In this document: one piece after another, positions 1 to 50,091 of the stretch
How the letters are laid out: each line of letters starts with the position of its first letter
Position numbering within the stretch: the first letter of the stretch is position 1
Source: Marinigracilibium pacificum
Lineage (GTDB): Bacteria; Bacteroidota; Bacteroidia; Cytophagales; Cyclobacteriaceae
Assembly (NCBI RefSeq): GCF_012926615.1
Contig: NZ_JABBNU010000006.1
Location: 186,001-250,000 of the forward strand
Reading direction: 5' to 3'
DNA length: 64,000 nt
Program-made: the position numbers and the translations under genes
Notes under the pieces: generated by a model
Databases searched by the model: none
What the model was told of the DNA's origin: nothing
Seen by the model: the letters and a program-made list of their open reading frames with translations, nothing else

Positions 1-74
1 CCTGTCTTTGATTGCTAGCACTTACTGAAATTTATTGTTTTTGAATTTCAGGTTTAGATTAAGTGTTAACAAAA

Positions 75-2078
75 ATGAAATACTCATTATCTTTAATAAC
101 TTTTTTACTATCGTGTAACCTGTTGGTATTTGGACAGGGAAATTTACTTTTAGTCGGTGGTGGTTCTGAAAAAGACGAATCATGGGGCTGGAGCAATGAG
201 CCATATAAATGGGCTATTGATAAAAGTTCGAATAAAACAGTCGCGATTTTAACTTACGAAACCCAACCATCTCAATGGTTGCCGGATTACTTTGTGTCTC
301 TTGGTGCTCAGAAGGCCTATAATGTATCGATTACAAATCAATCTGAAGCTAATAACGAATCAAATTTTGACTTGTTAAATGAAGCTGATGTTGTCTTTAT
401 TAAAGGTGGTGACCAATCTGTTTATTATCAGGAATATAATGACACCCGGGTTGAAGACGCCCTGCAAACTATTTTTGACAGAGGAGGGGTGATATGTGGT
501 ACCAGTGCAGGAATGGCAATTTTAGGCGGCACTGACTATACTGCTGAAGCCGGAAGTGTTTACCCTGATGAAACTTTGAGTGATATTAGGCTATCCGATA
601 TTACTCTGAAAGATGATTTTCTTTCTTTCAAACCTGGTTATTTGTTTGATACTCACTTTACAGAAAGAGGAAGGTTTACCCGTCTTATTCATTTTATTTC
701 GAGATATTATTTGGATAATGGAACCTTGATATCAGGTATTGGTGTAGATGATCAAACTGCCTTAGCAATTGATGAAAACAACCAGGCAACAGCATTTGGT
801 ACCGGTGGAGCTCATTTTTATTATTTTGAAAATAATCCTCAAATAACAAATGGTCAGCTTGTAGGAGGTGACGTAATGACATTTTCTATAGTTGATGGCC
901 AGTCTGTTAATTTAGATGATTTAAGTAATCGTCCTCAATATTCAAATCAGGTAAATGCTGGCAGTGTAAGCCTTAATAAAACATTGCTTATTCAAAAGAA
1001 GAGTGAATTTACAGAACTTGAACCTCTTTTAAATGAAATGCTTTCTATTGGTGATTCAGATAGCCTTGTTTTGATTTCAAATTCAAATAACTCAAAAGCT
1101 GGTTCAGTGGTAAATAGCATAAGGACTGAAAAAGGAATTATTGTAACCTGGTTGGAATTAACCGAAGCCAGTAATAGTTCATTACAAGTTGATCTTAGGA
1201 ATAAAATCCGTCAGGCAAATCATTTTATTTTGTTTGAAGTAACCCCGGCTGAGATTGAGGATTTTGCAAATGGTCAGACTGGTATACTATTAAAGAAAGC
1301 TATTAATAACGCTGGAGTAGTGCTGGCGCTAGTTGGTGAATCTGCTGAAATGGCTGGAGAGAAATATTGCACCAACTGTTCTGATGTTTCTTCAGCTTCT
1401 TATGATGGGTTACTCGACTTTTATGATGGATTTAACTTTCTGTCCTCTACAATGATAATTGCAAACACCTATGATCTGTCTACCGATTTTTATGAAAACA
1501 ATGCAAGTGCAGGTCATTGGGCAGCAATGAATTATGGTTTGAAAAATACTGTGTTTGTTCAAGATGAAACATTCATCAAGGCTTCTGAAAATGATGGTAA
1601 AATATCTATCACCGTTCATGGAGAAGTGCCAGGAATAGTTTTTACTAATAATTCAACATCATATCAGAATGTATCTTTTGGAAATGACGCTTCTGGTACG
1701 ACACGTCAGATTGTGGGCTTTGAAAATGGAACTTATTTCTTTTCTGATGAGACAAACAAATATTATGCTGGGCAGTTTTCAGTTGAAGTTCCGGAGGATC
1801 TTGGATGGGAGAGCATCGATGAACCTATAACAGGAATTGAAATTGAAAAATCAAAAATTGGTTTCCGTACAAATGGAAAAGATTTTTGGTTTGTCTCAGA
1901 TGAATACTGGGAACTTGATGTTAAAGTATTTGCAACAAATGGTCAGATATTAGACAATTGCAAATTGTTGAGTGGGCAAAAGTTTCCGATAAAAAATAAT
2001 AGTTCCAACATGGTGTTGGTTTTATTGTCAGATATTGAAAATAATATTATTTTAACAAGGAAAGTAATACTTCAATAG
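75..2078 (+). CDS. Secreted cyanophycinase-like S51 peptidase with T9SS tail
   Basis: Predicted to cleave cyanophycin or related isoaspartyl polymers outside the cell. An N-terminal signal peptide ends near LLVFGQ. Residues about 20-290 form an S51 (cyanophycinase/dipeptidase E) domain with GGDQ (Gln114), the nucleophile elbow GTSAGM (Ser144) and DTHF (His194). Residues about 300-580 look like a second, degenerate S51 copy: the elbow becomes GESAEM (Ser423) while the GGDQ and DTHF equivalents are lost. The last ~75 residues resemble a type A T9SS sorting domain. The 667-residue length is about twice that of a plain cyanophycinase. I chose the ATG at 75 because it puts the signal peptide at the N-terminus; an in-frame GTG lies at 63. 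It opens a susCD-containing locus. S51 membership is firm; the exact substrate is inferred. Confidence 0.85.
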   Translation: MKYSLSLITFLLSCNLLVFGQGNLLLVGGGSEKDESWGWSNEPYKWAIDKSSNKTVAILTYETQPSQWLPDYFVSLGAQKAYNVSITNQSEANNESNFDLLNEADVVFIKGGDQSVYYQEYNDTRVEDALQTIFDRGGVICGTSAGMAILGGTDYTAEAGSVYPDETLSDIRLSDITLKDDFLSFKPGYLFDTHFTERGRFTRLIHFISRYYLDNGTLISGIGVDDQTALAIDENNQATAFGTGGAHFYYFENNPQITNGQLVGGDVMTFSIVDGQSVNLDDLSNRPQYSNQVNAGSVSLNKTLLIQKKSEFTELEPLLNEMLSIGDSDSLVLISNSNNSKAGSVVNSIRTEKGIIVTWLELTEASNSSLQVDLRNKIRQANHFILFEVTPAEIEDFANGQTGILLKKAINNAGVVLALVGESAEMAGEKYCTNCSDVSSASYDGLLDFYDGFNFLSSTMIIANTYDLSTDFYENNASAGHWAAMNYGLKNTVFVQDETFIKASENDGKISITVHGEVPGIVFTNNSTSYQNVSFGNDASGTTRQIVGFENGTYFFSDETNKYYAGQFSVEVPEDLGWESIDEPITGIEIEKSKIGFRTNGKDFWFVSDEYWELDVKVFATNGQILDNCKLLSGQKFPIKNNSSNMVLVLLSDIENNIILTRKVILQ

Positions 2079-2287: not shown

Positions 2288-5200
2288 ATGAAGCAATTAG
2301 GATTACTATATCTGTTGCTTTTATCATTGATATCCGTTGGAAATATTAACGCCCAACAGGTAATTAGTGGTAAGGTCACAGATTTTCAGTCCGGAGAACC
2401 TGTTCCGGGTACTAACATTATAGTAAAAGGAACTTCCAGAGGAACGACTACAGATTTTGATGGTAATTATAGCCTTCAAATTCAATCAGGAGATTCGATA
2501 CTTGTATTTTCAAGTGTTGGATTTGACAGCCAGGAGATGAGAGTCAATGGCCGGTCAAAAATTGATATTTCTCTTATGCCCGATATTCAGGCACTTAAAG
2601 AGGTAGTGGTTGTTGGATACGGTACTCAGAAGAAACAAGATATTTCTTCTTCGGTTTCGACAATTGACCAGGCAGAGTTTAATCAGATTCCAACCAGTAG
2701 TTTTGATGCTGCTATTCAGGGTAGGGCATCAGGATTAAATATCTCTTCACCTTCAGGTACTCCCGGAGGGCAAACAAATATCAATATCAGGGGAGCAACA
2801 TCAATTTCAGCATCCTCACAACCGTTATTTATTATTGATGGAATACCGGTAGAAGTAAAGAATAACTCAGCACTTAATAGCAATATTCAGCCAATCAACC
2901 CATTAGCTGAATTGAACCCAAATGATATTGAGTCGATTACAGTATTAAAAGATGCATCTGCAGCAGCAATTTATGGTTCAAGAGGAGCCAATGGTGTGAT
3001 TTTAATTACAACCAAACGAGGATCGGCTGGTAGAGATAAATTGAACATCGGTTACTATGCCGGTTTTTCAAAAGCAACCAATGTTCCTGATATGATGTCA
3101 AGTTCAGAATGGATTGGCTTTTTAAATGCAGCTGCTGAGTTTGACGGACTAGGACAAAATTATTGGAATGAGATATTAGGTGATCCAAATGATGCAGATT
3201 TACCTAATTATAATGTTTATGATGATATTTTAAGAACTGGTGTTATCAATAATGCTGACATTAGTTATGCCGGAGGAGATGAGAAATTCAGTTATTATCT
3301 TTCAGGAAACTATTTTAACCAGACTGGTATTCAGATTGGCCAGGGATATGAAAGAATTTCGGGTAGAGTAAACGTTGATTACTCACCTAATGATAAAGTA
3401 AAGATCTCAACAACTACATTCCTTGCACGTGGATTTCACGATAGAACTATTGGTGAAAATGATGAATATGGAGTAGTTGTAAATGCCCAGGCCTGGGATC
3501 CGAGAGTTGAACTAACAGATCAAAATGGCGTTTATGTTAACCCATTTGATACTTACAGCTGGTGGGCATTAGAAAATCCACTACTAATCGCTCAGGAATA
3601 TGTGAATACTTCAAAAAATTCAAGATTACAATCGTCATTAAGTCTTGAATGGTATATAACTCCTAATCTTACCTTTAAATCAAGTGGTGGATTAGATTTT
3701 AATACATTGATTGATAAAGGTTTCGTGCCTAAAGGTTATAACCAAACTGATGTTGGTTTAGGTACCTATGGAACTTATGAAGCTTCGAGCTGGATTAATG
3801 AAAACACACTAAAGTATACTAATACATTTGATTCTAAGCATTTCATTGATGCATTGGTTGGTATTACATTTCAGGAATCTGTTGAAGAATTTTCTGTAAT
3901 TAATGCTTCAGGATATTCAACTAACCAGGTGATTTCTACATCAGCAGCAGGTCAAATTACTGGTGCTTCTGATGGTGGCTTTAGATATGGACTTGTGTCT
4001 TATCTGGGTAGATTAAATTATACCTATGATAATAGATATACTTTAACATTTACTGGTCGAGCTGATGGTTCAAGTAGATTCGGAGCAAATAATAAATATG
4101 GATTTTTCCCTTCAGGATCGATAGGATGGAATATGCATAATGAGTCATTCTTCCCTGACGATTCATTTATCTCTTTATTAAAGCTTAGAGGATCTTACGG
4201 TGCAATAGGTAATCAGTCAATTGGAAGCACAATTGCTCAGGCTACTTACAGAAGTTCTGCAGGTTATAACGGACAGGGAGGAACATCTGCTTTGCAGCTT
4301 GGTAACCCTAACTTGACTTGGGAAAAAACAATCCAGTCAGATATTGGAATTGATGTAGGGCTTTTTGATAACAGAGTTGAAATCACAGCTGATTATTTCA
4401 AAAAAGATACGGACGGACTTCTATTGAATGCCGATATTCCAGGCTCTACAGGTTTTAAATCATTGATTTCTAATAATGGTAAAATTGTAAACGAAGGAGT
4501 TGAACTTTCGATTAGTACTGTCAATATCGAAAGTGGTGATTTCAGATGGACTACAACTTTTAATATTACCTGGATTGATAATGAGGTAATTGATGTGATC
4601 AATGACGGTGAAATTCTTAGCCGTAACTTTATCTTAAAAGAAGGAGAACCACTAAGTACATTTTATTTGATAAAATTCCTTGGTGTTGACCCTCAAACCG
4701 GTGATGCTGTATTCCTTGATGCTAACAGTGATGGAATCATTAATCTTGATGACAGAGTGGTAGCAGGAAATGCTCAACCGGATTACTTCGGTGGATTCAC
4801 CAATAATTTTAGCTGGAGAGGCTGGAATTTGAGCGTATTCTTCCAGTACCAACACGGAAACCAGATTTTTAACCAGAGTCGATATGCTTTTGAAAATTAT
4901 GGTACTCTTAAAGACGGACTGCCATTTGGTAATCAAAACAGAAGGTCGTTGGATTACTGGAAAAAGCCAGGTGATGTAACAAGTATCCCAAGACCAACTC
5001 ATGCAGATGAGTTCTCTTCCGATGCTCAATTCCAGCGTTTCTCAACACAATACCTTGAGGATGGTAGCTACCTGAGACTTAAGAATGTTCGCCTGGGATA
5101 TACATTCCCTTCAAACATGCTTGATCGAATGAAGCTTCAGTCGCTTACAATCTATGGTCAGGCTCAAAACTTACTGACTTTCACGAATTATTTAGGTTTT

Positions 5201-5320
5201 GATCCGGAGGTAAGTACAAACACATCCGGTGATGGAGACTTGAATACACTACAAGGTGAGGACTTTGGTACTCTAGGTCAGGCCAGAACTTTTACAATCG
5301 GTTTAAACATTGGATTATAA
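2288..5320 (+). CDS. SusC-type TonB-dependent outer-membrane transporter
   Basis: Energy-dependent importer of the SusC/RagA family in the outer membrane. The 1010-residue protein has a signal peptide (residues 1-22), a carboxypeptidase-regulatory-like domain (about 24-100, with GTSRGTTTDFDGNY), the SusC-type EVVVVGYGTQKK segment, a plug domain (about 115-230, with NIRGATS and FIIDGIP) and a long beta-barrel. Length is normal for the family. It overlaps the region just before susD and is probably cotranscribed with it. The flanking cyanophycinase-like genes suggest that its cargo is a peptide (for example Asp-Arg oligomers or dipeptides) rather than a glycan. The family call is secure; the cargo is inferred from context only. 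Confidence 0.95.
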   Translation: MKQLGLLYLLLLSLISVGNINAQQVISGKVTDFQSGEPVPGTNIIVKGTSRGTTTDFDGNYSLQIQSGDSILVFSSVGFDSQEMRVNGRSKIDISLMPDIQALKEVVVVGYGTQKKQDISSSVSTIDQAEFNQIPTSSFDAAIQGRASGLNISSPSGTPGGQTNINIRGATSISASSQPLFIIDGIPVEVKNNSALNSNIQPINPLAELNPNDIESITVLKDASAAAIYGSRGANGVILITTKRGSAGRDKLNIGYYAGFSKATNVPDMMSSSEWIGFLNAAAEFDGLGQNYWNEILGDPNDADLPNYNVYDDILRTGVINNADISYAGGDEKFSYYLSGNYFNQTGIQIGQGYERISGRVNVDYSPNDKVKISTTTFLARGFHDRTIGENDEYGVVVNAQAWDPRVELTDQNGVYVNPFDTYSWWALENPLLIAQEYVNTSKNSRLQSSLSLEWYITPNLTFKSSGGLDFNTLIDKGFVPKGYNQTDVGLGTYGTYEASSWINENTLKYTNTFDSKHFIDALVGITFQESVEEFSVINASGYSTNQVISTSAAGQITGASDGGFRYGLVSYLGRLNYTYDNRYTLTFTGRADGSSRFGANNKYGFFPSGSIGWNMHNESFFPDDSFISLLKLRGSYGAIGNQSIGSTIAQATYRSSAGYNGQGGTSALQLGNPNLTWEKTIQSDIGIDVGLFDNRVEITADYFKKDTDGLLLNADIPGSTGFKSLISNNGKIVNEGVELSISTVNIESGDFRWTTTFNITWIDNEVIDVINDGEILSRNFILKEGEPLSTFYLIKFLGVDPQTGDAVFLDANSDGIINLDDRVVAGNAQPDYFGGFTNNFSWRGWNLSVFFQYQHGNQIFNQSRYAFENYGTLKDGLPFGNQNRRSLDYWKKPGDVTSIPRPTHADEFSSDAQFQRFSTQYLEDGSYLRLKNVRLGYTFPSNMLDRMKLQSLTIYGQAQNLLTFTNYLGFDPEVSTNTSGDGDLNTLQGEDFGTLGQARTFTIGLNIGL

Positions 5321-5330
5321 AATGGAAACC

Positions 5331-6656
5331 ATGAAGAAATTAATATATACACTCGGTACAGTAATGTTGTGTTTCAGCTGTAACCTGTTAGACCAGGAAT
5401 TACCAAATACGATTCCTGCCGAAAATGCAATAGTCGACAGAGTTTCAGCCGAAGCAGCAGTGATTGGACTTTATAATGAAATGCAGGCAGGGAGTTTGTA
5501 TGGCTCTGATGCTGTCTACGCTACAGAACTATTGGCTAAAAATATGAAAGCCGTTAAATTCCAGGCAGTGTGGCAGGAATTGGGTTCCGGAATAGTTCCT
5601 TCAGCTAATTTTCATGTTGAAGATAGCTGGATAGCTTGGTATAGTATTGTTAATAATGCGAACAATGTAATCTTAAAAGTTCCTGAGCTTAATGATGTCT
5701 CAGAATCAGATGCTGCTGAATTTACCGGAACAGCATTTTTTAGTCGTGCATTGGCCCATTTTGAATTGTTAAGACAATGGGGTGAGTATTGGAATACTGG
5801 CAGTGATTATGGAATTCCTTTACCAACAGAACCGGCTACAGCTCCTGTAGTAGTTCCTCGTTCAAGTGTAGCTTCGGCTTATGCTTTGATTGAAAGTGAT
5901 TTATTCAAAGCAATTGACAGACTACCAGATTCTGGTGATCCTGTTTATGCAAGTAAAGGAGCAGCAGAGGCTCTTATGGCAAGAGTGAAACTTTACAAAG
6001 GAGAGTATGATTCAGCATATTACTATGCGAATGATGTTATTGAAAACTTTGATTATTCCCTTCAGGATAATTATGAAGATATCTTTAATGAAGGCACTTC
6101 AGAATCAATCTTTGAAGTAGATTTTAATCAACAGGATTTCAGTAATTATACATTCCTGATGTTTGGTACCGAGGCTGAGATCGTAATGACCGATGAGGTA
6201 ATTGATCTTTATCAAAGCATTGATGAGCGTAGAAATCTTATTGAAGCATTTGGTAACTTTTATCGATGCACTAAGTACGGAACTAACCAGGATAATGGTG
6301 AGGGAAATGCATTTGTAATGAGATTAGCAGAAATGTACCTGATCAGAGCTGAAGCATTGTCTCGTAATTCTGGTCCTACTGCTGGTCTTGCTGATATAAA
6401 TGTGCTTAGAGAGCGTGCAGGGATAGGTCCGGTTGACGCAGCAACTGTAAATTCAATTAATGATTTTAGTAATGTTTTAATCAGAGAAGCCAGACTAGAG
6501 TTTCAGGCTGAGGGTGTTTATTGGTATTATCTATCACGTCTGGATAAAATCCAAGAGGTATTAAACAGAGATTCTTTCAGAAGAATTTATCCAATACCAT
6601 TGAGAGAATTAAATATTACTGATGATCAGGATATTTTTCAAAATCCAGGATACTAA
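5331..6656 (+). CDS. SusD/RagB-family surface substrate-binding lipoprotein
   Basis: Partner lid of the SusC transporter, anchored to the outer membrane and facing outward. The N-terminus MKKLIYTLGTVMLCFSC is a lipoprotein signal with its lipobox Cys at residue 17. The helical SusD fold is recognisable from the SRALAHFELLRQWG segment, the AEMYLIRAEALSR helix, LNVLRERAG-like spacing and the C-terminal YPIPLRELNITD motif. At 441 residues it is at the short end for SusD. The start at 5331 gives the cleanest signal peptide; ATG at 5322 and TTG at 5310 are in frame and the latter overlaps susC. It lies directly behind susC, as in nearly all such pairs. Confidence 0.93.
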   Translation: MKKLIYTLGTVMLCFSCNLLDQELPNTIPAENAIVDRVSAEAAVIGLYNEMQAGSLYGSDAVYATELLAKNMKAVKFQAVWQELGSGIVPSANFHVEDSWIAWYSIVNNANNVILKVPELNDVSESDAAEFTGTAFFSRALAHFELLRQWGEYWNTGSDYGIPLPTEPATAPVVVPRSSVASAYALIESDLFKAIDRLPDSGDPVYASKGAAEALMARVKLYKGEYDSAYYYANDVIENFDYSLQDNYEDIFNEGTSESIFEVDFNQQDFSNYTFLMFGTEAEIVMTDEVIDLYQSIDERRNLIEAFGNFYRCTKYGTNQDNGEGNAFVMRLAEMYLIRAEALSRNSGPTAGLADINVLRERAGIGPVDAATVNSINDFSNVLIREARLEFQAEGVYWYYLSRLDKIQEVLNRDSFRRIYPIPLRELNITDDQDIFQNPGY

Positions 6657-6668
6657 ACCAATCAAGAA

Positions 6669-8030
6669 ATGATCAAGAAAATTAAAATATATAGTTTACT
6701 GGTGCTGAGTTTGCTATTCGTGTTTACATCTTGTAAAGACGATGAAAATGTGCCAGCACCAAAAGCAGGTTTTACACTTGAATCGACTACAATCAAGGCC
6801 AGAGAAGTGATATCACCTAATAATACTTCAGAAAATGGAGTGACTTATCAGTGGTCGTTGGGTAATGGGAAATTAATTAATGGAGAGTCACCTTCTTTCT
6901 CATATGATACGGAAGGAAGTTATATCCTAACCCTTGTCGTTCAAAATGAGTCAGGATCTAGTAAAGTACAACAGACAGTAACTGTTTCTGGTATTTTACC
7001 AATTGCTGGCTTTGATGTTGAGAATTCTGACAGGCTGATAGCAAATGGTGACGTAGTCTTCGTCAATACTTCAGAAGATGGAGTTACCTATGAGTGGGAT
7101 TTTGGAGATGGAAATACTTCCACAGATGCTAATCCTGTACACCGATATCAGGCATCAGGAGTTTATACCGTTACATTAATTGCAACAAACGAAGATGGTA
7201 CAAACGAAATCTCTCAAGACGTAACGATTAGAACTAGGCCGAATGAGCTGTATTTTATGGATCCATCTGATTTCTACCTGAGAAGAACACTGTTAGGTAG
7301 TGATGTTGTTACCCAGGATGTTGTCGAAATGCCAGGCTGGGGTGTTGGAGTGTCGTTTAACCCAACAGATGGAATGGTTTATATCACAGATGCTGATAAC
7401 ACCAGTGAAAGTGTAAATAAAATCTGGAGACTAAACCCTGATGGAAGTGGTCTGGAAGAGTTGGTTGGCGGACTAACAGAACCATGGTTAATTGATGTTG
7501 ATGGTACCGCTGGGTATATGTTCTGGACTGATTTTTCTTCCGGAGATGTTATGAGAGCAAATCTTGATGGTAGTGATGCGCAAACAATAGCAACATATCT
7601 TGATGGGTTTGAATACCCAGAAGGAATTGCCGCATTTGATGGCTCTGTATATCTGAATGATCCTACATTAAATGGAATTTTGAAAGTATCATATGATGGT
7701 TCAACTGTTGAACAAATCATTACTGATATGGGTGGAATTGGAATTGGCATTGATAAAACAAACAGCATGATTTATTTCCATGATCAAAATTCCGGAGCGA
7801 TTAAAAGATCAGACTTAAGTGGAAATGTTGATACCGAATGGTCAATTGCATTGTCTGAAGCAGGCGACAGAGTATATGGTATAAGCGTAGATGTTTCTGC
7901 AGGTAAAATTTACTGGACCAACAGAGATAGTGGATTAATTGGAGCTGCTGACCTTAATGGTGAAAACATTGAAACACTAGCAGGGTCACTAAATAGTCCA
8001 AGAGGTTTAACACTCATTAAAAATCAATGA
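6669..8030 (+). CDS. Lipoprotein with two PKD domains and a YWTD-like propeller
   Basis: Predicted surface lipoprotein (lipobox ending VFTSC, Cys22). Residues about 30-105 and 110-190 are PKD-type Ig-like domains; the second has the typical YEWDFGDGNTS motif. Residues about 190-453 form a six-bladed propeller of low-density-lipoprotein-receptor YWTD type, with blades such as GKIYWTNRDSG and YMFWTDFSSGD. It sits 12 bp after susD, the position of SusE/SusF-like binding lipoproteins in glycan loci, and overlaps the next gene by 4 bp. I infer a polymer-binding or presenting role. No catalytic residues are evident. Confidence 0.85.
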   Translation: MIKKIKIYSLLVLSLLFVFTSCKDDENVPAPKAGFTLESTTIKAREVISPNNTSENGVTYQWSLGNGKLINGESPSFSYDTEGSYILTLVVQNESGSSKVQQTVTVSGILPIAGFDVENSDRLIANGDVVFVNTSEDGVTYEWDFGDGNTSTDANPVHRYQASGVYTVTLIATNEDGTNEISQDVTIRTRPNELYFMDPSDFYLRRTLLGSDVVTQDVVEMPGWGVGVSFNPTDGMVYITDADNTSESVNKIWRLNPDGSGLEELVGGLTEPWLIDVDGTAGYMFWTDFSSGDVMRANLDGSDAQTIATYLDGFEYPEGIAAFDGSVYLNDPTLNGILKVSYDGSTVEQIITDMGGIGIGIDKTNSMIYFHDQNSGAIKRSDLSGNVDTEWSIALSEAGDRVYGISVDVSAGKIYWTNRDSGLIGAADLNGENIETLAGSLNSPRGLTLIKNQ

Positions 8031-9181
8031 TCATGAAAGCAATAAAATTATTAATTCTATCTTTTTCAGTTCTGGTTTTTATTGCCGGGTGTAAAGAAGA
8101 AGATCCTTTGATACCGCCATTTACAATTGTGAAGGCCGATTTTTCTTATCAACTTGATAATGGTCTGTTTGCTCCGGCAACAGCTACATTTAATAGTGAT
8201 GTTGTTTTTACTGATGGTGATAATATAGAATATTTCTGGTCTTTTGGTGATGGTGCTTCTTCTACAGAGGCGAATCCTTCTCATTTATATACGTCACCAG
8301 GATTTTATGAAGTCACTCTTACAGTAGTTGGAAGTGGTGATACCGATAGTCATACTTCAACCCTTGAGGTAAGAGATCCGGGTCGTTCCTATTATCCGGT
8401 TATTATTGCTTCAGGCTCTGGAAAGCGAATTTATGATGCCCAAACTGGAGTTATTGATGTATCATTAGACGTTTCACCTTTTGATATTGCAATTGATTCT
8501 GTCAGAGAGAAGATATATTTCACAGCAAGTGATGCTGGTGCTGTTTATTCATTAGGGTTTTCTGATGATACTCCAGCTATGGTTGTTGACGGGTTGTCTA
8601 ATCCTCATGGAATTGCTATTGATGAAAGCACAGGAATGGCTTATGTAGCTGACCGTGGAGATAACGCGATATATGCTGTAGATGTTGAGGCCGGAACAAA
8701 GAGTGTGTTGTTCTCTGATGCAGATGAAGCTACATTCTCATTACCTGAAGGTCTAGATTATCACAATGGTTTTGTATATGTGACTGCTGTAGATTTTGAT
8801 GCAGAAGCAGTTTGGAAAGTGAATGTTTCTGATGGAGCTTTTGATCGTATTATTGGTTATTCTGCTGGTGGATATGGTTATTCAATCGTAGTAAATTCAC
8901 AAAGTGACAGGATCTATTTTCATAACGATGAAGGTCCGGAGTTTTTAAATGCATCACTAAGTGGTACAGATATTAGCACCCTGGTTTCTTCTGCAGGAAG
9001 TAATAATGGTGTTGACGGAAGAAGTTTCGGTGTTACAATTTCGTATGCCGAAGGAAAAGTTTACTGGACAGAAGCAGGTAATGGCTTGCTGAAACGAGCA
9101 AATCTGGATGGGACTGAGGTCCAGACGATTGCTTCTGGTTTGACTGATCCTCTAGGTGTGGAATTGGTTGGAATTCAGTAA
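8027..9181 (+). CDS. Lipoprotein with one PKD domain and a propeller
   Basis: Shorter paralogue of the preceding gene. It begins in an ATGA overlap with that gene's stop, so translational coupling is likely. ATG at 8033 is an alternative that gives MKAIKLLILSFSVLVFIAGC. After the lipobox Cys comes one PKD domain (about residues 32-118, with EYFWSFGDGASS) and a propeller (about 120-380) with blades like GKVYWTEAGNG and GMAYVADRGDN. It closes the susC-susD-propeller transcription unit, because a strong terminator follows at 9199. Its function is probably substrate capture on the cell surface, inferred from position. Confidence 0.83.
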   Translation: MIMKAIKLLILSFSVLVFIAGCKEEDPLIPPFTIVKADFSYQLDNGLFAPATATFNSDVVFTDGDNIEYFWSFGDGASSTEANPSHLYTSPGFYEVTLTVVGSGDTDSHTSTLEVRDPGRSYYPVIIASGSGKRIYDAQTGVIDVSLDVSPFDIAIDSVREKIYFTASDAGAVYSLGFSDDTPAMVVDGLSNPHGIAIDESTGMAYVADRGDNAIYAVDVEAGTKSVLFSDADEATFSLPEGLDYHNGFVYVTAVDFDAEAVWKVNVSDGAFDRIIGYSAGGYGYSIVVNSQSDRIYFHNDEGPEFLNASLSGTDISTLVSSAGSNNGVDGRSFGVTISYAEGKVYWTEAGNGLLKRANLDGTEVQTIASGLTDPLGVELVGIQ

Positions 9182-9198
9182 ATTAGGTTTATGTTGTT

Positions 9199-9239
9199 AG
9201 AGCGGTAGCCAGTAGATAGGTTGCCGCTCTATTTTTTTT
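9199..9239 (+). terminator. Rho-independent terminator after the propeller genes
   Basis: A 12-bp stem with two G-U pairs (arms 9199-9210 and 9219-9230) encloses an 8-nt loop and is followed by ATTTTTTTT. It separates the susC-to-propeller unit from the downstream cyanophycinase and transporter genes, which therefore probably have their own promoter or read-through. Confidence 0.85.
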
Positions 9240-9252
9240 AATATTTTTGTAT

Positions 9253-10140
9253 ATGAGAAATATCTGGATATTAATTGCAATCTCTTTGTGCCTTTCTTGT
9301 TCACAAGAAACAAAAGAGAAACCAATAAATGATGTTGAAGAGTCAAGTTTTGGGGACCAGCAAAATACTAATAAAGGTGGTTTGATAATTATTGGTGGGG
9401 GTAAAAGACCGCAATCTCTTTTGAAAAGAATAATAAAGGAATCAGGAATAGATAAAAAAGGGTATGGAATGGTTTTACCCATGTCTAGCATAGAACCGGA
9501 CTCGGCAAATTGGTATGCTATCAGGCAATTTGAAGAATTGGGTTATACTAATATTTTTGGTTTAGACTATGATTCGATAAATGGTTACAGACAACGACAG
9601 ATCGATTCATTAAAAGGAGCATCTTTAATTTATATATCCGGTGGCGATCAAAGGAAATTTATGGATAGAATATCCGGAACTTCCATTGGGAATATCATCA
9701 GAGAGAGGTATGCATCAGGCTCAATAATTGCTGGTACTTCTGCAGGTGCAGCTGTTCAAAGCAGGAGAATGATTACCGGTGATGAAAGGAAACACCCTGA
9801 ATATCACCCAACCTACAGGCATCTTGAAACAGAAAATTTTGATTGGACTGAGGGGTTAGCGTTGGTTGATGGAGTAATAATAGACCAGCATTTTGTGAAA
9901 AGGTCGCGTTACAACAGACTTCTAACAGCAATAATGACATTTCCTGATGAAATAGGTGCCGGTATTGATGAATCTACAGCTATGTATATTAGGGGAGATT
10001 CAGTTGAAGTTTTAGGAGAAAGTCAAGTGATTATTTTTAAAAATACTGCCAGAGAGTCAAATCAAAAAGATGGAAAGCTTGGTTCAAAAGGAATTACTCT
10101 TGATATTTACCTGCCAGGAGAAAAATTCCCATTGAAATAA
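9253..10140 (+). CDS. Cyanophycinase-like S51 peptidase, lipoprotein
   Basis: Single-domain S51 serine peptidase of 295 residues, a usual cyanophycinase length. It is anchored by a lipoprotein signal (MRNIWILIAISLCLSC, Cys16). Visible family motifs are IIGGGKRP near residue 43, GGDQ (Gln133), the nucleophile elbow GTSAGAA (Ser163) and IDQHF (His213). The acidic spacer after Cys16 suggests the mature enzyme is tethered by a flexible linker. ATG at 9253 is preferred over an in-frame TTG at 9247. A 30-bp gap separates it from the YfcC-family transporter. It probably cleaves imported or surface-bound polymer fragments to dipeptides. Dipeptidase E-like or other isoaspartyl specificity cannot be excluded. 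Confidence 0.88.
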   Translation: MRNIWILIAISLCLSCSQETKEKPINDVEESSFGDQQNTNKGGLIIIGGGKRPQSLLKRIIKESGIDKKGYGMVLPMSSIEPDSANWYAIRQFEELGYTNIFGLDYDSINGYRQRQIDSLKGASLIYISGGDQRKFMDRISGTSIGNIIRERYASGSIIAGTSAGAAVQSRRMITGDERKHPEYHPTYRHLETENFDWTEGLALVDGVIIDQHFVKRSRYNRLLTAIMTFPDEIGAGIDESTAMYIRGDSVEVLGESQVIIFKNTARESNQKDGKLGSKGITLDIYLPGEKFPLK

Positions 10141-10170: not shown

Positions 10171-11550
10171 ATGATAAAAATTAGAAAAGTTCCAGATACT
10201 CTGGTTATAATTTTTTGCTTCCTCATACTTTTTACGCTATTAACATGGCTAATTCCGGCAGGTGAATATGAAAAGGAGGTAGTTAAATTATCGAATGGAA
10301 GTGAAAGGGAGGTGCTAGTTCCAGGAACTTATCACCACGTTGAAGAAAACCCACAAAGCCTGCTAGATTTTTTAATGGCTCCAATCAAAGGGTTTATCGG
10401 TGGAGCCGAAATTATTGGTTTCATTCTGATTGTTGGAGGGGCATTTTCTGTATTTAATAAAACCGGAGCTGTAACAGCTTCACTACAGTCATTAGTTAGA
10501 TTCTGTGAGAAATATCCCTCGGCAAAAGGGATAATCATCCCGATGATTATCGTTTTCTTTTCGATCATGGGAGCCACTTTTGGTATGAGTGAGGAGGTTT
10601 TGGTATTCGTTTTATTAACCATTCCAATGGCCAGATCATTAGGTTATGATACCATTACCGGCATAGCGATTCCATTTGTTGGGGCGGGTGCAGGATTTGC
10701 CGGAGCAATAACTAATCCGTTTACAATAGGTATTGCTCAGGAAATTGCCGAAGTGCCCATGTTTAGTGGGTATCAATACAGAATGGTTGTTTGGGTAGTA
10801 CTAACTGTAGTCGCAGTTATCTATATAATGCGTCATGCCAAGAAGGTGTTTAATCCGGTTCAAGTCGAATTGGAAAATGATATTGACGTTGAACAGGTTT
10901 CCTTTACTACTGTAAGAAAAATAACTTTGTTTTTACTGTTTGGTGGACTTGCAATAATTTTAGTTGGGGTAACCAAATTTGATTGGTACATAGCAGAAAT
11001 TGCTGCTGTATTTTTCGGTATGGGACTATTGTCAGCTATCATAAATAGAATGGAATTGCAATCTACTGTTGATGCTTTTAAAGTTGGAGCTTCAGATGTG
11101 TTAACTGCCGGGTTGGTGGTTGCACTCAGCAAAGGTTTGCTTATTCTGGCTGAAGACGGAAGAATAATCGAAACAATTTTGCATGGTCTGGCTTCGTTGG
11201 CAGAAGGATGGCCAAAAGCAATTTCAGTGGAAATGATGTTTGTAGTGCAGAGTCTTTTGAATTTCTTTCTTCCAAGTGGTAGCGGACAGGCGGTATTGAC
11301 TATGCCTATAATGGCTCCTCTTAGTGATTTATTAGGATTGTCCAGACAAACAGCAGTATTGGCTTTTCAATTTGGTGATGGATTGTCTAATATGATAATT
11401 CCTACCAGTGCTGTTACTATGGGAGTTCTGTCAATTGGAAAAGTTTCTTATGAAAAGTGGTTAAAATGGATGATGCCACTGTTTTTAATATTGGTTTTGA
11501 TCTCAGGAATACTATTACTTCTTCCGGCAGTAGTATTTGGATGGAATTAA
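10171..11550 (+). CDS. YfcC-family inner-membrane transporter
   Basis: Polytopic protein of 459 residues with about 11-12 membrane segments. The N-terminal VPDTLVIIFCFLILF and TWLIPAGEYEKE segments are typical of the YfcC/C4-dicarboxylate-type anaerobic carrier family (ion transporter superfamily). Other family features are the EEVLVFVLL and FLPSGSGQAVLTMPIMAPLSD stretches, the latter a re-entrant-loop-like signature. Members are annotated as basic amino-acid, dipeptide or dicarboxylate carriers, with few tested. Its place directly after a cyanophycinase-like gene suggests uptake of arginine, aspartate or Asp-Arg dipeptides into the cytoplasm. Specificity is inference. Confidence 0.8.
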   Translation: MIKIRKVPDTLVIIFCFLILFTLLTWLIPAGEYEKEVVKLSNGSEREVLVPGTYHHVEENPQSLLDFLMAPIKGFIGGAEIIGFILIVGGAFSVFNKTGAVTASLQSLVRFCEKYPSAKGIIIPMIIVFFSIMGATFGMSEEVLVFVLLTIPMARSLGYDTITGIAIPFVGAGAGFAGAITNPFTIGIAQEIAEVPMFSGYQYRMVVWVVLTVVAVIYIMRHAKKVFNPVQVELENDIDVEQVSFTTVRKITLFLLFGGLAIILVGVTKFDWYIAEIAAVFFGMGLLSAIINRMELQSTVDAFKVGASDVLTAGLVVALSKGLLILAEDGRIIETILHGLASLAEGWPKAISVEMMFVVQSLLNFFLPSGSGQAVLTMPIMAPLSDLLGLSRQTAVLAFQFGDGLSNMIIPTSAVTMGVLSIGKVSYEKWLKWMMPLFLILVLISGILLLLPAVVFGWN

Positions 11551-48956: not shown

Positions 48957-49898
48957 TTAAGAGTTATTTTTATAGATCATTGTTTCGGCAGGTAAGCCTT
49001 CAGTGACTTTTCCCCGATACATGCCTTCACAATTAAAAGAGAAGACTATATTTCCTTTTCCATCGATACCGATAATACCTCCCTCACCACCGAGTTCGAC
49101 CATCTTTTCCATGATGACCTTATCAGCTGCTTCCTGAAGTGAAACTTCTTTATACTGCATAATAGCAGCAATATCATAGGCTGTAACGGCTCGGAGGAAG
49201 TATTCACCATAACCAGTACAGCTAATTGCACAGGCATTATTATCAGCATAGACTCCACTTCCAATTACCGGACTATCACCAATTCTTCCATACTTTTTAT
49301 TTGTAAGTCCACCGGTACTGGTAGCACCTGCTATATTTCCTTCCTTATCAATGGCAACTGCTCCGACAGTTCCAAACTTCTTGTCACTGTCATGATCAAG
49401 TTTCATAGTGCCTTCATTTTTAACACTTTTGAGTTGTTCATATCTGAAATCAGAAAAGAAATAGTCATTACTTACAAGACTAAAGCCATTTTTTACTGCA
49501 TATTCTTCTGCGCCTTCTCCTGCAAGAAAGACAAATTCATTATCATCCAGAATTCTTCTGGATAATCTTACCGGGTTTTTAATATGTTTTACTGCGCATA
49601 TAGCTCCTGCATTTTTTGTTTTGCCATCCATAATAGAAGCCTCAAGCTCATGGTCTTCATTGTTGGTGAAAACTGAACCTTTTCCTGCATTAAAAAGGTC
49701 ACTATCTTCGAGGCAGGCCACAGCTTCTGTTACAGCATCAATAGCTGATCCATTTCTTTTTAGTATATATTCACCGGCTTTTAATGCAGCTTCAAGTGCT
49801 TTGTGATAGGCAGCCTCTTTTTCAGAGGTCATATGTTCTTTTAAGATTGTCCCTGCACCACCATGAATAGCCAGGGCATATTTTTGTTCTTTTGACAT
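48957..49898 (-). CDS. Isoaspartyl peptidase / plant-type L-asparaginase
   Basis: 313-residue Ntn-hydrolase that autocleaves to two subunits. The new N-terminal Thr177 is in FGTVGAVAID, with the flanking STGGLTNKKYGRIGDSP and SCTGYGEYFLRA segments typical of the family. It hydrolyses beta-aspartyl dipeptides, including beta-Asp-Arg from cyanophycin in characterised homologues, and L-asparagine more slowly. There is no signal peptide, so it is cytosolic. ATG at 49898 (MSKEQKYALAIHGGAGT) is preferred to one at 49910. It stands alone, 37 kb from the cyanophycinase-like locus, but would complete that pathway. Confidence 0.93.
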   Translation of the reverse strand: MSKEQKYALAIHGGAGTILKEHMTSEKEAAYHKALEAALKAGEYILKRNGSAIDAVTEAVACLEDSDLFNAGKGSVFTNNEDHELEASIMDGKTKNAGAICAVKHIKNPVRLSRRILDDNEFVFLAGEGAEEYAVKNGFSLVSNDYFFSDFRYEQLKSVKNEGTMKLDHDSDKKFGTVGAVAIDKEGNIAGATSTGGLTNKKYGRIGDSPVIGSGVYADNNACAISCTGYGEYFLRAVTAYDIAAIMQYKEVSLQEAADKVIMEKMVELGGEGGIIGIDGKGNIVFSFNCEGMYRGKVTEGLPAETMIYKNNS

Positions 49899-50091
49899 GT
49901 ATAATACCAATTAATAAATAAGAATATGAAAATTTATTAAGACCCGGAATGGTCTTTATCGAGGTGAGGTATTAACTAACAGTCAAATATTGGCTGCAGG
50001 TTTAATAAACCAATTGGTTTGCATGATATGAGCGAGAGTGCTTTCATATAGTTATTCGAATTGAACAAATATAAAGAAAACAAATAAAAAA

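Follow-up and report, generated by a model that had tools for sequence, protein, structure and literature searches.

Cyanophycin is a nitrogen-storage polymer of cyanobacteria. We analyzed a 64,000-nucleotide stretch of the Marinigracilibium pacificum genome (contig NZ_JABBNU010000006.1, positions 186,001 to 250,000 of the forward strand; hereafter the window), where two adjacent genes encoding lipoproteins, PropA and PropB, directly follow genes for a SusC-type TonB-dependent transporter and a SusD-type lipoprotein (susCD). The best explanation of our data is that PropA and PropB are probably surface receptors of a SusCD scavenging locus, with a putative SusE/SusF-like role in capturing cyanophycin. 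This proposal is built on computed domains, fold, lipoprotein and export-type signals, gene order, cyanophycinase motifs and conserved co-occurrence, from which we infer the ligand, the binding face, the enzyme compartments and the order of steps.

An initial annotation of this DNA had described the pair as tandem PKD plus YWTD-propeller lipoproteins after susD, and Pfam matches, structural matches of AlphaFold2 models and the lipobox all confirmed this description. PropA matched PKD over two stretches (PKD_4, 97 bits; cut-off 27) and PropB over one (57.2 bits), and the Ldl_recept_b repeats of both were above the gathering score of 21 (43.2 bits in PropA, 32.1 bits in PropB). The propA gene, with its lipobox, lies directly 3′ of susD as genes in the SusE/SusF position do, with a 12-bp gap between the two open reading frames (ORFs). 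No SusE/SusF or carbohydrate-binding-module (CBM)-type glycan-binding domain was found in PropA or PropB, whose Pfam matches were only to PKD/Ig-like and propeller models. A 4-bp overlap (ATGA) of the two genes, also described initially, holds if PropB starts at ATG 8027 and is lost if the alternative in-frame ATG at 8033 is used. The other eight tandem pairs, in our own ORF picks, showed gaps of 0–96 bp and one 1-bp overlap but no 4-bp overlap, indicating that only the close coupling is conserved. The strong terminator proposed after propB was borne out. This hairpin has 13 pairs, 7 of them G-C (the most G-C pairs among the hairpins listed), and a T8 tail; its minimum free energy was −23.2 kcal/mol with a z-score of −4.94, and none of 200 shuffled sequences folded as well. 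As it lies between PropB and CphS, it could set the expression ratio of the surface proteins to the enzymes.

AlphaFold2 models, built from alignments of the window proteins with homologues from the fetched loci, had a mean pLDDT (predicted local distance difference test) of 90.5 for PropA and 84.7 for PropB. The best solved match of the PropA model was the LRP4 propeller (3v64_C; Z 33.9, root-mean-square deviation 2.1 over 250 residues), and that of the PropB model was the LRP6 propeller (3sob_B; Z 33.8, root-mean-square deviation 1.7 over 247 residues), indicating that the modeled fold of both proteins is a YWTD propeller. Both models aligned best with YWTD propellers, a six-bladed class. 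PropB also matched SGL and Arylesterase models weakly, below their cut-offs, which would suit propellers that are enzymes, namely hydrolases or lactonases that attack the polymer or one of its end groups. Such an activity is highly improbable, as the best curated match (Ldl_recept_b) and the top structural hits belong to YWTD receptor propellers, which are not enzymes.

The mature N-termini after the lipidated Cys read C-KDDEN in PropA and C-KEEDP in PropB. A lipid-accepting Cys was recognized in 24 of 26 propeller proteins, and 20 of these 24 carried at least two D/E residues at positions +2 to +6. Among the other lipobox ORFs of the best 80 cyanophycinase loci described below, which were chosen with a stricter pattern, 3 of 35 did so. 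The lipid-Cys proteins without this acidic signal were those of loci L109, L227 and L232 and the second protein of L176. Signals described for surface export are K-(D/E)2 (Capnocytophaga), SDDDD (Bacteroides fragilis) and SDDFE (Flavobacterium johnsoniae) (PMC5080379). The acidic residues of PropA and PropB are positioned as in the Bacteroides fragilis SDDDD signal, a consensus that may not be the one of this host. The K of the optimal Capnocytophaga signal, C-X-K-(D/E)2-X, lies one place later than in PropA and PropB (PMC5080379). Judged from these N-terminal residues, most of the propeller-protein signals look like those of surface-exported lipoproteins.

We have little doubt that the locus serves cyanophycin. 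As shown in Table 1, the genes on the + strand are ordered as those for a large S51 protein (CphL), SusC, SusD, PropA, PropB, the terminator, the cyanophycinase CphS and a YfcC/DcuC-family transporter. In alignments with the cyanophycinases 7uqv and 3en0 of the PDB, CphS retained the motifs GGDQ, GTSAGA and DQHF..R.R..R, which hold catalytic and substrate-binding residues, and its N-terminus looked lipoprotein-like by eye. CphL kept GGDQ, GTSAG and HF..R.R..R in the same comparison; it scored 83.1 bits against TIGR02069, under the equivalog cut-off of 126.6. As its start resembles a signal peptide by eye, CphL is possibly secreted; the type IX secretion system (T9SS) tail model did not match the window copy of CphL. 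No carbohydrate-active enzymes were matched among the seven locus proteins scanned. Cyanophycin and poly-aspartate had both been proposed initially as ligands for binding assays; nothing in the locus points to poly-aspartate, and the neighboring enzyme is a cyanophycinase by curated cut-off. Likewise, storage of self-made cyanophycin was rejected, because no cyanophycin synthetase gene (cphA1) scored above the cut-off in the genome (best 111.5 versus 850 bits).

The best NCBIfam model of the transporter was PRK11588 (YfcC; 364.6 bits, under the cut-off of 500). The isoaspartyl peptidase IaaA is encoded on the same contig 37 kb past the transporter gene, i.e., outside the cluster. It scored 356 bits against the beta-aspartyl-peptidase model PRK10226 (cut-off 567) and shares 63% identity with the IaaA encoded in the cyanophycin locus of Fulvivirga kasyanovii; in relatives (e.g., L139, L157, L176, L178 and L183), IaaA lies within or adjoins the cluster. 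The genome holds two PF01112 isoaspartyl peptidases and no IadA-type dipeptidase above the cut-off. The presence of isoaspartyl peptidases together with the absence of a cyanophycin synthetase above the cut-off makes scavenging likely. Therefore, given that it combines cyanophycinase and transporter genes, the locus is most likely of the cyanophycin-scavenging type, with its dipeptidase gene 37 kb off rather than inside.

Table 1. Predicted features of the cyanophycin locus, in positions of the window.
Feature	Positions	Strand	Description
CphL, large S51 (cyanophycinase-like) protein	63..2078	+	671 aa; PF03575 38.8 bits, above cut-off
SusC-type TonB-dependent transporter	2288..5320	+	TIGR04056 892.6 bits, above cut-off
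SusD-type lipoprotein	5310..6656	+	PF14322 and PF07980 above cut-off; solved relatives mostly of the SusD superfamily
PropA	6669..8030	+	453 aa; lipoprotein signal (Cys22, then KDDEN), two PKD domains (~30-188), YWTD propeller (~190-453)
PropB	8027..9181	+	384 aa; lipoprotein signal (Cys22, then KEEDP), one PKD domain, YWTD propeller (~117-384)
Intrinsic terminator-like hairpin	9198..9231	+	Between PropB and CphS
CphS cyanophycinase	9247..10140	+	TIGR02069 140.7 bits, cut-off 126.6; probable start ATG 9253
YfcC/DcuC-family inner-membrane transporter	10171..11550	+	PF03606 345.7 bits, above cut-off; putative importer of degradation products
IaaA-type isoaspartyl peptidase	48957..49910	-	PF01112 351 bits, above cut-off; putative last step, beta-Asp-Arg to Asp + Arg

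Further S51-type proteins were observed beside these. In L092, a gene 3′ of CphS and an M20 peptidase (3090-4382) encodes a small S51 protein that has a type IX secretion tail, which is in line with extracellular cleavage of cyanophycin. A pair of S51 proteins similar to the CphL and CphS of the window, one with and one without a Por secretion domain, has been reported for a Balneolaeota strain and Salinivirga (PMC6243061). A third S51-type match in the genome of the window (L002, C23:110346-110930) lies away from the locus in a 718 aa frame and is 35% identical to CphL over residues 69-251.

We then considered how specifically such propellers accompany cyanophycinase loci. The association was counted on the propeller part only, because PKD lipoproteins also follow SusD beside unrelated susCD genes (L141-L144). 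A profile of 24 propeller domains was run against 395 Bacteroidota genomes (match, E <= 1e-15; at most six first-look candidates scored per genome), and SusC and SusD around the matches were sought by single-sequence phmmer (E <= 1e-4), which very remote ones may escape. The profile matched 20 of the 395 genomes, and the propeller shared its locus with susCD in three of these 20 (G000, which is the genome of the window itself, G410 and G452). All three are cyanophycinase loci; their high scores arise by construction, as they supplied rows to the profile. The single PropA propeller as query gave the same top genomes (G410, 2.4e-38; G452, 1.1e-30). SusC and SusD were not seen in the stretches fetched around the propellers of the other 17 genomes, nor in those of two more found with the single PropA query; the stretch of L273 starts near a contig end, and in L272, also without SusC or SusD, the propeller ORF is missing from the ORF picks. 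Thus, the occurrence mostly beside unrelated susCD systems, which the initial annotation had named as speaking against polypeptide capture, was not what we observed.

Among the propeller proteins away from susCD, several have a type IX sorting tail, as matched by Pfam in L134 and L137 and as judged by eye from resemblance in others. The genome of the window encodes a further YWTD-propeller lipoprotein (L274, 8424-9548, contig C1) with no susCD nearby and an N-terminus that looks IPT/TIG-type by eye. PKD-stalked propellers of another class also exist: L144 (8385-9866) encodes a lipoprotein with PKD and a PQQ-type propeller after an unrelated SusD.

Surface lipoproteins in the SusE/SusF position usually bind glycans. 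PropA and PropB could therefore act in cell adhesion by binding something else encountered along with cyanophycin, for example a glycan or peptide on the cyanobacterial surface; it would suit this idea that the PKD lipoproteins beside unrelated susCD genes in L143 and L144 end in a CBM_4_9-like C-terminus (under the cut-off) or a PQQ-type propeller. We consider it unlikely, since among the 20 matched genomes no YWTD type was found beside a susCD lacking a cyanophycinase.

The association was also examined starting from the cyanophycinase. Genomes were scanned with an alignment of CphS, which gave at least 565 candidate loci, of which the best 80, i.e., those closest to the query, were analyzed; several of them are short contigs unable to show susCD. 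SusC and SusD were both present in 44 of the 80, and a propeller was found in 12 of these 44, in 10 cases immediately following SusD. A thirteenth propeller locus is L197, where the contig edge truncates SusC. The hosts of the 13 are Gelidibacter algens, Fulvivirga kasyanovii, Chryseolinea lacunae, C. serpens, a Marinoscillum, two Flammeovirga, Sphingobacterium litopenaei and assembled Cytophagales, Cyclobacteriaceae, Bacteroidales, Bacteroidetes and Chitinophagaceae genomes. A tandem propeller pair was present in 7 of the 13 (L156, L157, L158, L160, L161, L163 and L176), in addition to G410 and the window. An order-level search gave two Flammeovirga-type propeller loci, L139 and L140; L140 is on the L183 contig, and L099/L186, L102/L198 and L111/L228 are likewise repeated across sets.

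Two other kinds of loci appeared among the CphS relatives. In Flavobacterium-type loci (L099-L103, L184, L186, L191-L194, L196, L198, L200-L202, L204, L206, L207 and L222), a CphS relative lies beside susCD and a penicillin-amidase-type enzyme (PF01804 by Pfam in L101, which also encodes an M28 peptidase; by similarity to the L101 enzyme in those loci that belong to the best 80); these loci may target another isopeptide or N-acyl polymer. In L114, L117, L124-L126 and L128-L131, CphS occurs with a large S51 protein, a TonB-receptor-like protein (~820-850 aa) and often YfcC, and no SusD was detected in these loci; in L114, the genes in between encode, among others, a regulator of the RpiR type, a PorV-like protein and a protein of 922 aa that no Pfam model matched.

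A SusC tree was built by a quick method with SH-aLRT support only; the L232 row, probably a second, downstream SusC, was not used. The window SusC shares 57% identity with its counterpart in the cyanophycin locus of Fulvivirga kasyanovii and 51-53% with those of L096, L098 and L171, and its best paralogue from the same genome in the set compared is 36% identical (39% in a local match). Transporters of cyanophycin loci fell into at least three clades, and propellers accompanied two of them: the clade of the window, which also holds one paralogue from the same genome (L283), and a Sphingobacterium/Pedobacter clade (L109 and L227). Occurrence with two separate clades favors a link to the substrate over a link to one SusC lineage, which the propeller therefore does not seem to follow. 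In the propeller tree, which left out L134, L137 and L138 and included the divergent L176:4502-5701, the Gelidibacter/Chryseolinea group showed separate first- and second-gene lineages. Since the Fulvivirga and UBA9432 pairs form a group of their own with PropB, apart from these lineages, tandem pairs probably originated, or were rearranged, on more than one occasion. Alignments A5-A7 were made without L176:4502-5701, A5 also without L183 (a near copy of other Flammeovirga rows), and A7 also without the Flammeovirga, L165 and L197 rows.

In a less likely alternative, the propellers are a scaffold or lid of an outer-membrane complex, docking the S51 enzymes or capping SusCD with no binding of the polymer. 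YWTD propellers are protein-protein docking modules in many of the matched solved complexes, low identity among homologues would suit co-evolving interfaces, and in BtuB-BtuG a propeller lipoprotein caps its transporter, though it binds the ligand too (PMC10404256). However, two SusC clades and both tandem and single arrangements suit a shared ligand better than one fixed partner.

A candidate binding face was sought at 59 alignment columns of 26 propellers from the loci and, for comparison, 16 YWTD propellers of other origin (Bonferroni threshold ~8.5e-4), with L137 as outgroup, L134 and L138 left out as too short, and L176:4502-5701 included; the p-values are optimistic, as the sequences are related. 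Columns G356, D371, G227, G404, I350, Y403, R445, A427 and R419 passed, and R401 narrowly failed (1.1e-3), an arginine found there in 0 of 16 controls with a shorter domain cut and in 2 of 14 with a wider one. At column 371, the family has D, and PropA and PropB have H. PropA has all three arginines (401, 419 and 445), and residues 356, 371, 401, 403, 419 and 445 of its model are at or beside strand ends (DSSP), which by propeller topology we take to be the top face. The family-enriched residues, arginines included, are thus predicted in top-face loops, and their position at strand ends suggests that they cluster in space. A broader proposal is that PKD-stalked YWTD lipoproteins are a dedicated cyanophycin receptor family with a top-face Arg/Tyr patch, part of a SusCD "peptidopolymer utilisome" found in several Bacteroidota families and with more than one SusC lineage; for this we see the chances as evenly balanced.

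In the proposed mechanism of cyanophycin capture, PropA and PropB would be anchored by their lipidated cysteines and exported to the outer face, where the PKD stalks would hold the six-bladed propellers off the membrane. The top face of the propellers would capture insoluble or high-mass cyanophycin from lysed cyanobacteria and keep it close to SusCD and the large S51 enzyme CphL. Fragments would pass SusCD and be cut by CphS to beta-Asp-Arg; these products would move inward via the YfcC-type carrier, after which IaaA would split them to Asp and Arg. The polypeptide capture that the initial annotation had called plausible is well supported by the cyanophycin context of the locus, but its appeal to eukaryotic YWTD receptors amounts to a resemblance of fold.

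Several observations weigh against this mechanism. Among the best 80 loci, 32 of the 44 with susCD lack a propeller: 15 of these 32 are Flavobacterium loci with a penicillin-amidase-like enzyme, and in the others SusD is followed by IaaA, an S51 enzyme or a PKD-only lipoprotein. In the set of 395 genomes, 96 had a CphS relative; contexts were fetched for 40, and 15 of the 40 had SusC and SusD, with a propeller in only two (L092 and L109). With 32 of 44 and 13 of 15 susCD-bearing loci lacking it, the propeller is not essential to such loci. In L109, L227 and L232, the propeller follows CphS rather than SusD and is the one without the acidic export signal, and in L163, the first of the two propellers lacks a PKD stalk. 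Identity within the propeller family is low (22-37% to PropA), and PropB keeps one of the three arginines (R332). An acidity suiting an arginine-rich ligand was dropped as evidence: the propellers have isoelectric points (pI) of 4.05-4.80, but the controls were as acidic, with a pI of 4.05-4.92 in 16 of 16 YWTD domains of >200 residues (of 23 listed).

SusCD systems have mostly been studied as glycan machines. If the proposal is true, a conserved SusCD cyanophycin locus with receptors of its own extends the utilisome idea to a nitrogen-storage polymer, points to recyclers of cyanobacterial nitrogen in mats and blooms, and gives bacterial YWTD propellers a concrete ligand; it could also offer cyanophycin-binding modules to the biopolymer field.

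Cyanophycin scavenging loci have been mentioned for strain L21-Spi-D4 and Flammeovirga pacifica (PMC10206079). The cyanophycin utilization locus of L21-Spi-D4 (Ben Hania 2017, via PMC10206079) resembles that of the window in joining a cyanophycinase and a transporter for environmental scavenging. It differs in including iadA, whereas the dipeptidase of the window is IaaA-type and 37 kb away, and the excerpts available of PMC10206079 mention neither susCD nor propeller lipoproteins for it. In Citromicrobium sp. JLT1363, a TonB-dependent transporter also lies beside a cyanophycinase, and cyanophycin uptake was predicted from this neighborhood (PMC3400609), so that the idea of such transport predates this work; the available part of that article mentions neither SusD nor a propeller lipoprotein for it. 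Excerpts of PMC11573002, PMC9723704 and PMC10100682 contained nothing on susCD with cyanophycinase, and no description of YWTD or PKD propeller lipoproteins in cyanophycin loci was found in the accessible portions of the open-licence PMC literature. Within that literature, the conserved propeller receptors are the part not found in print.

PropA and PropB share with SusE/SusF and other SusCD surface glycan-binding proteins (SGBPs) a surface-type lipoprotein encoded directly after susD and a tandem pair, and with the levan SGBP they share Ig-like domains before a distal binding domain (PMC7618045). Unlike in SusE/SusF, their distal domain is a YWTD propeller with no glycan-binding match, in a locus that encodes S51/cyanophycinase proteins. 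The propellers of LDLR, LRP4/6 and nidogen share the YWTD fold (Z ~28-34, 15-25% identity), and several solved YWTD matches are complexes with polypeptides. However, these are eukaryotic receptors or matrix proteins without a PKD stalk or lipid anchor, and a shared fold does not mean a shared ligand. BtuG of the Bacteroides B12 system is, like the proposed PropA and PropB, a propeller surface lipoprotein that captures the substrate of a TonB-dependent transporter (PMC6143338, PMC10404256). BtuG2, in contrast, is seven-bladed, has a linker to its lipid anchor, pairs with BtuB and binds corrinoids, whereas the models of PropA and PropB align best with YWTD propellers and their neighbor is SusC (TIGR04056) instead of BtuB. 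Because a defining feature of each group was looked for in PropA and PropB and found to be lacking, they are members of neither SusE/SusF nor BtuG. BtuH2 of Bacteroides thetaiotaomicron shares N-terminal PKD domains, a distal ligand domain and a role in nutrient uptake, although its ligand domain has the BtuH fold and its ligand is B12 (PMC8941943). By analogy, then, the closest work-alikes of PropA and PropB are BtuG and the PKD-stalked BtuH2.

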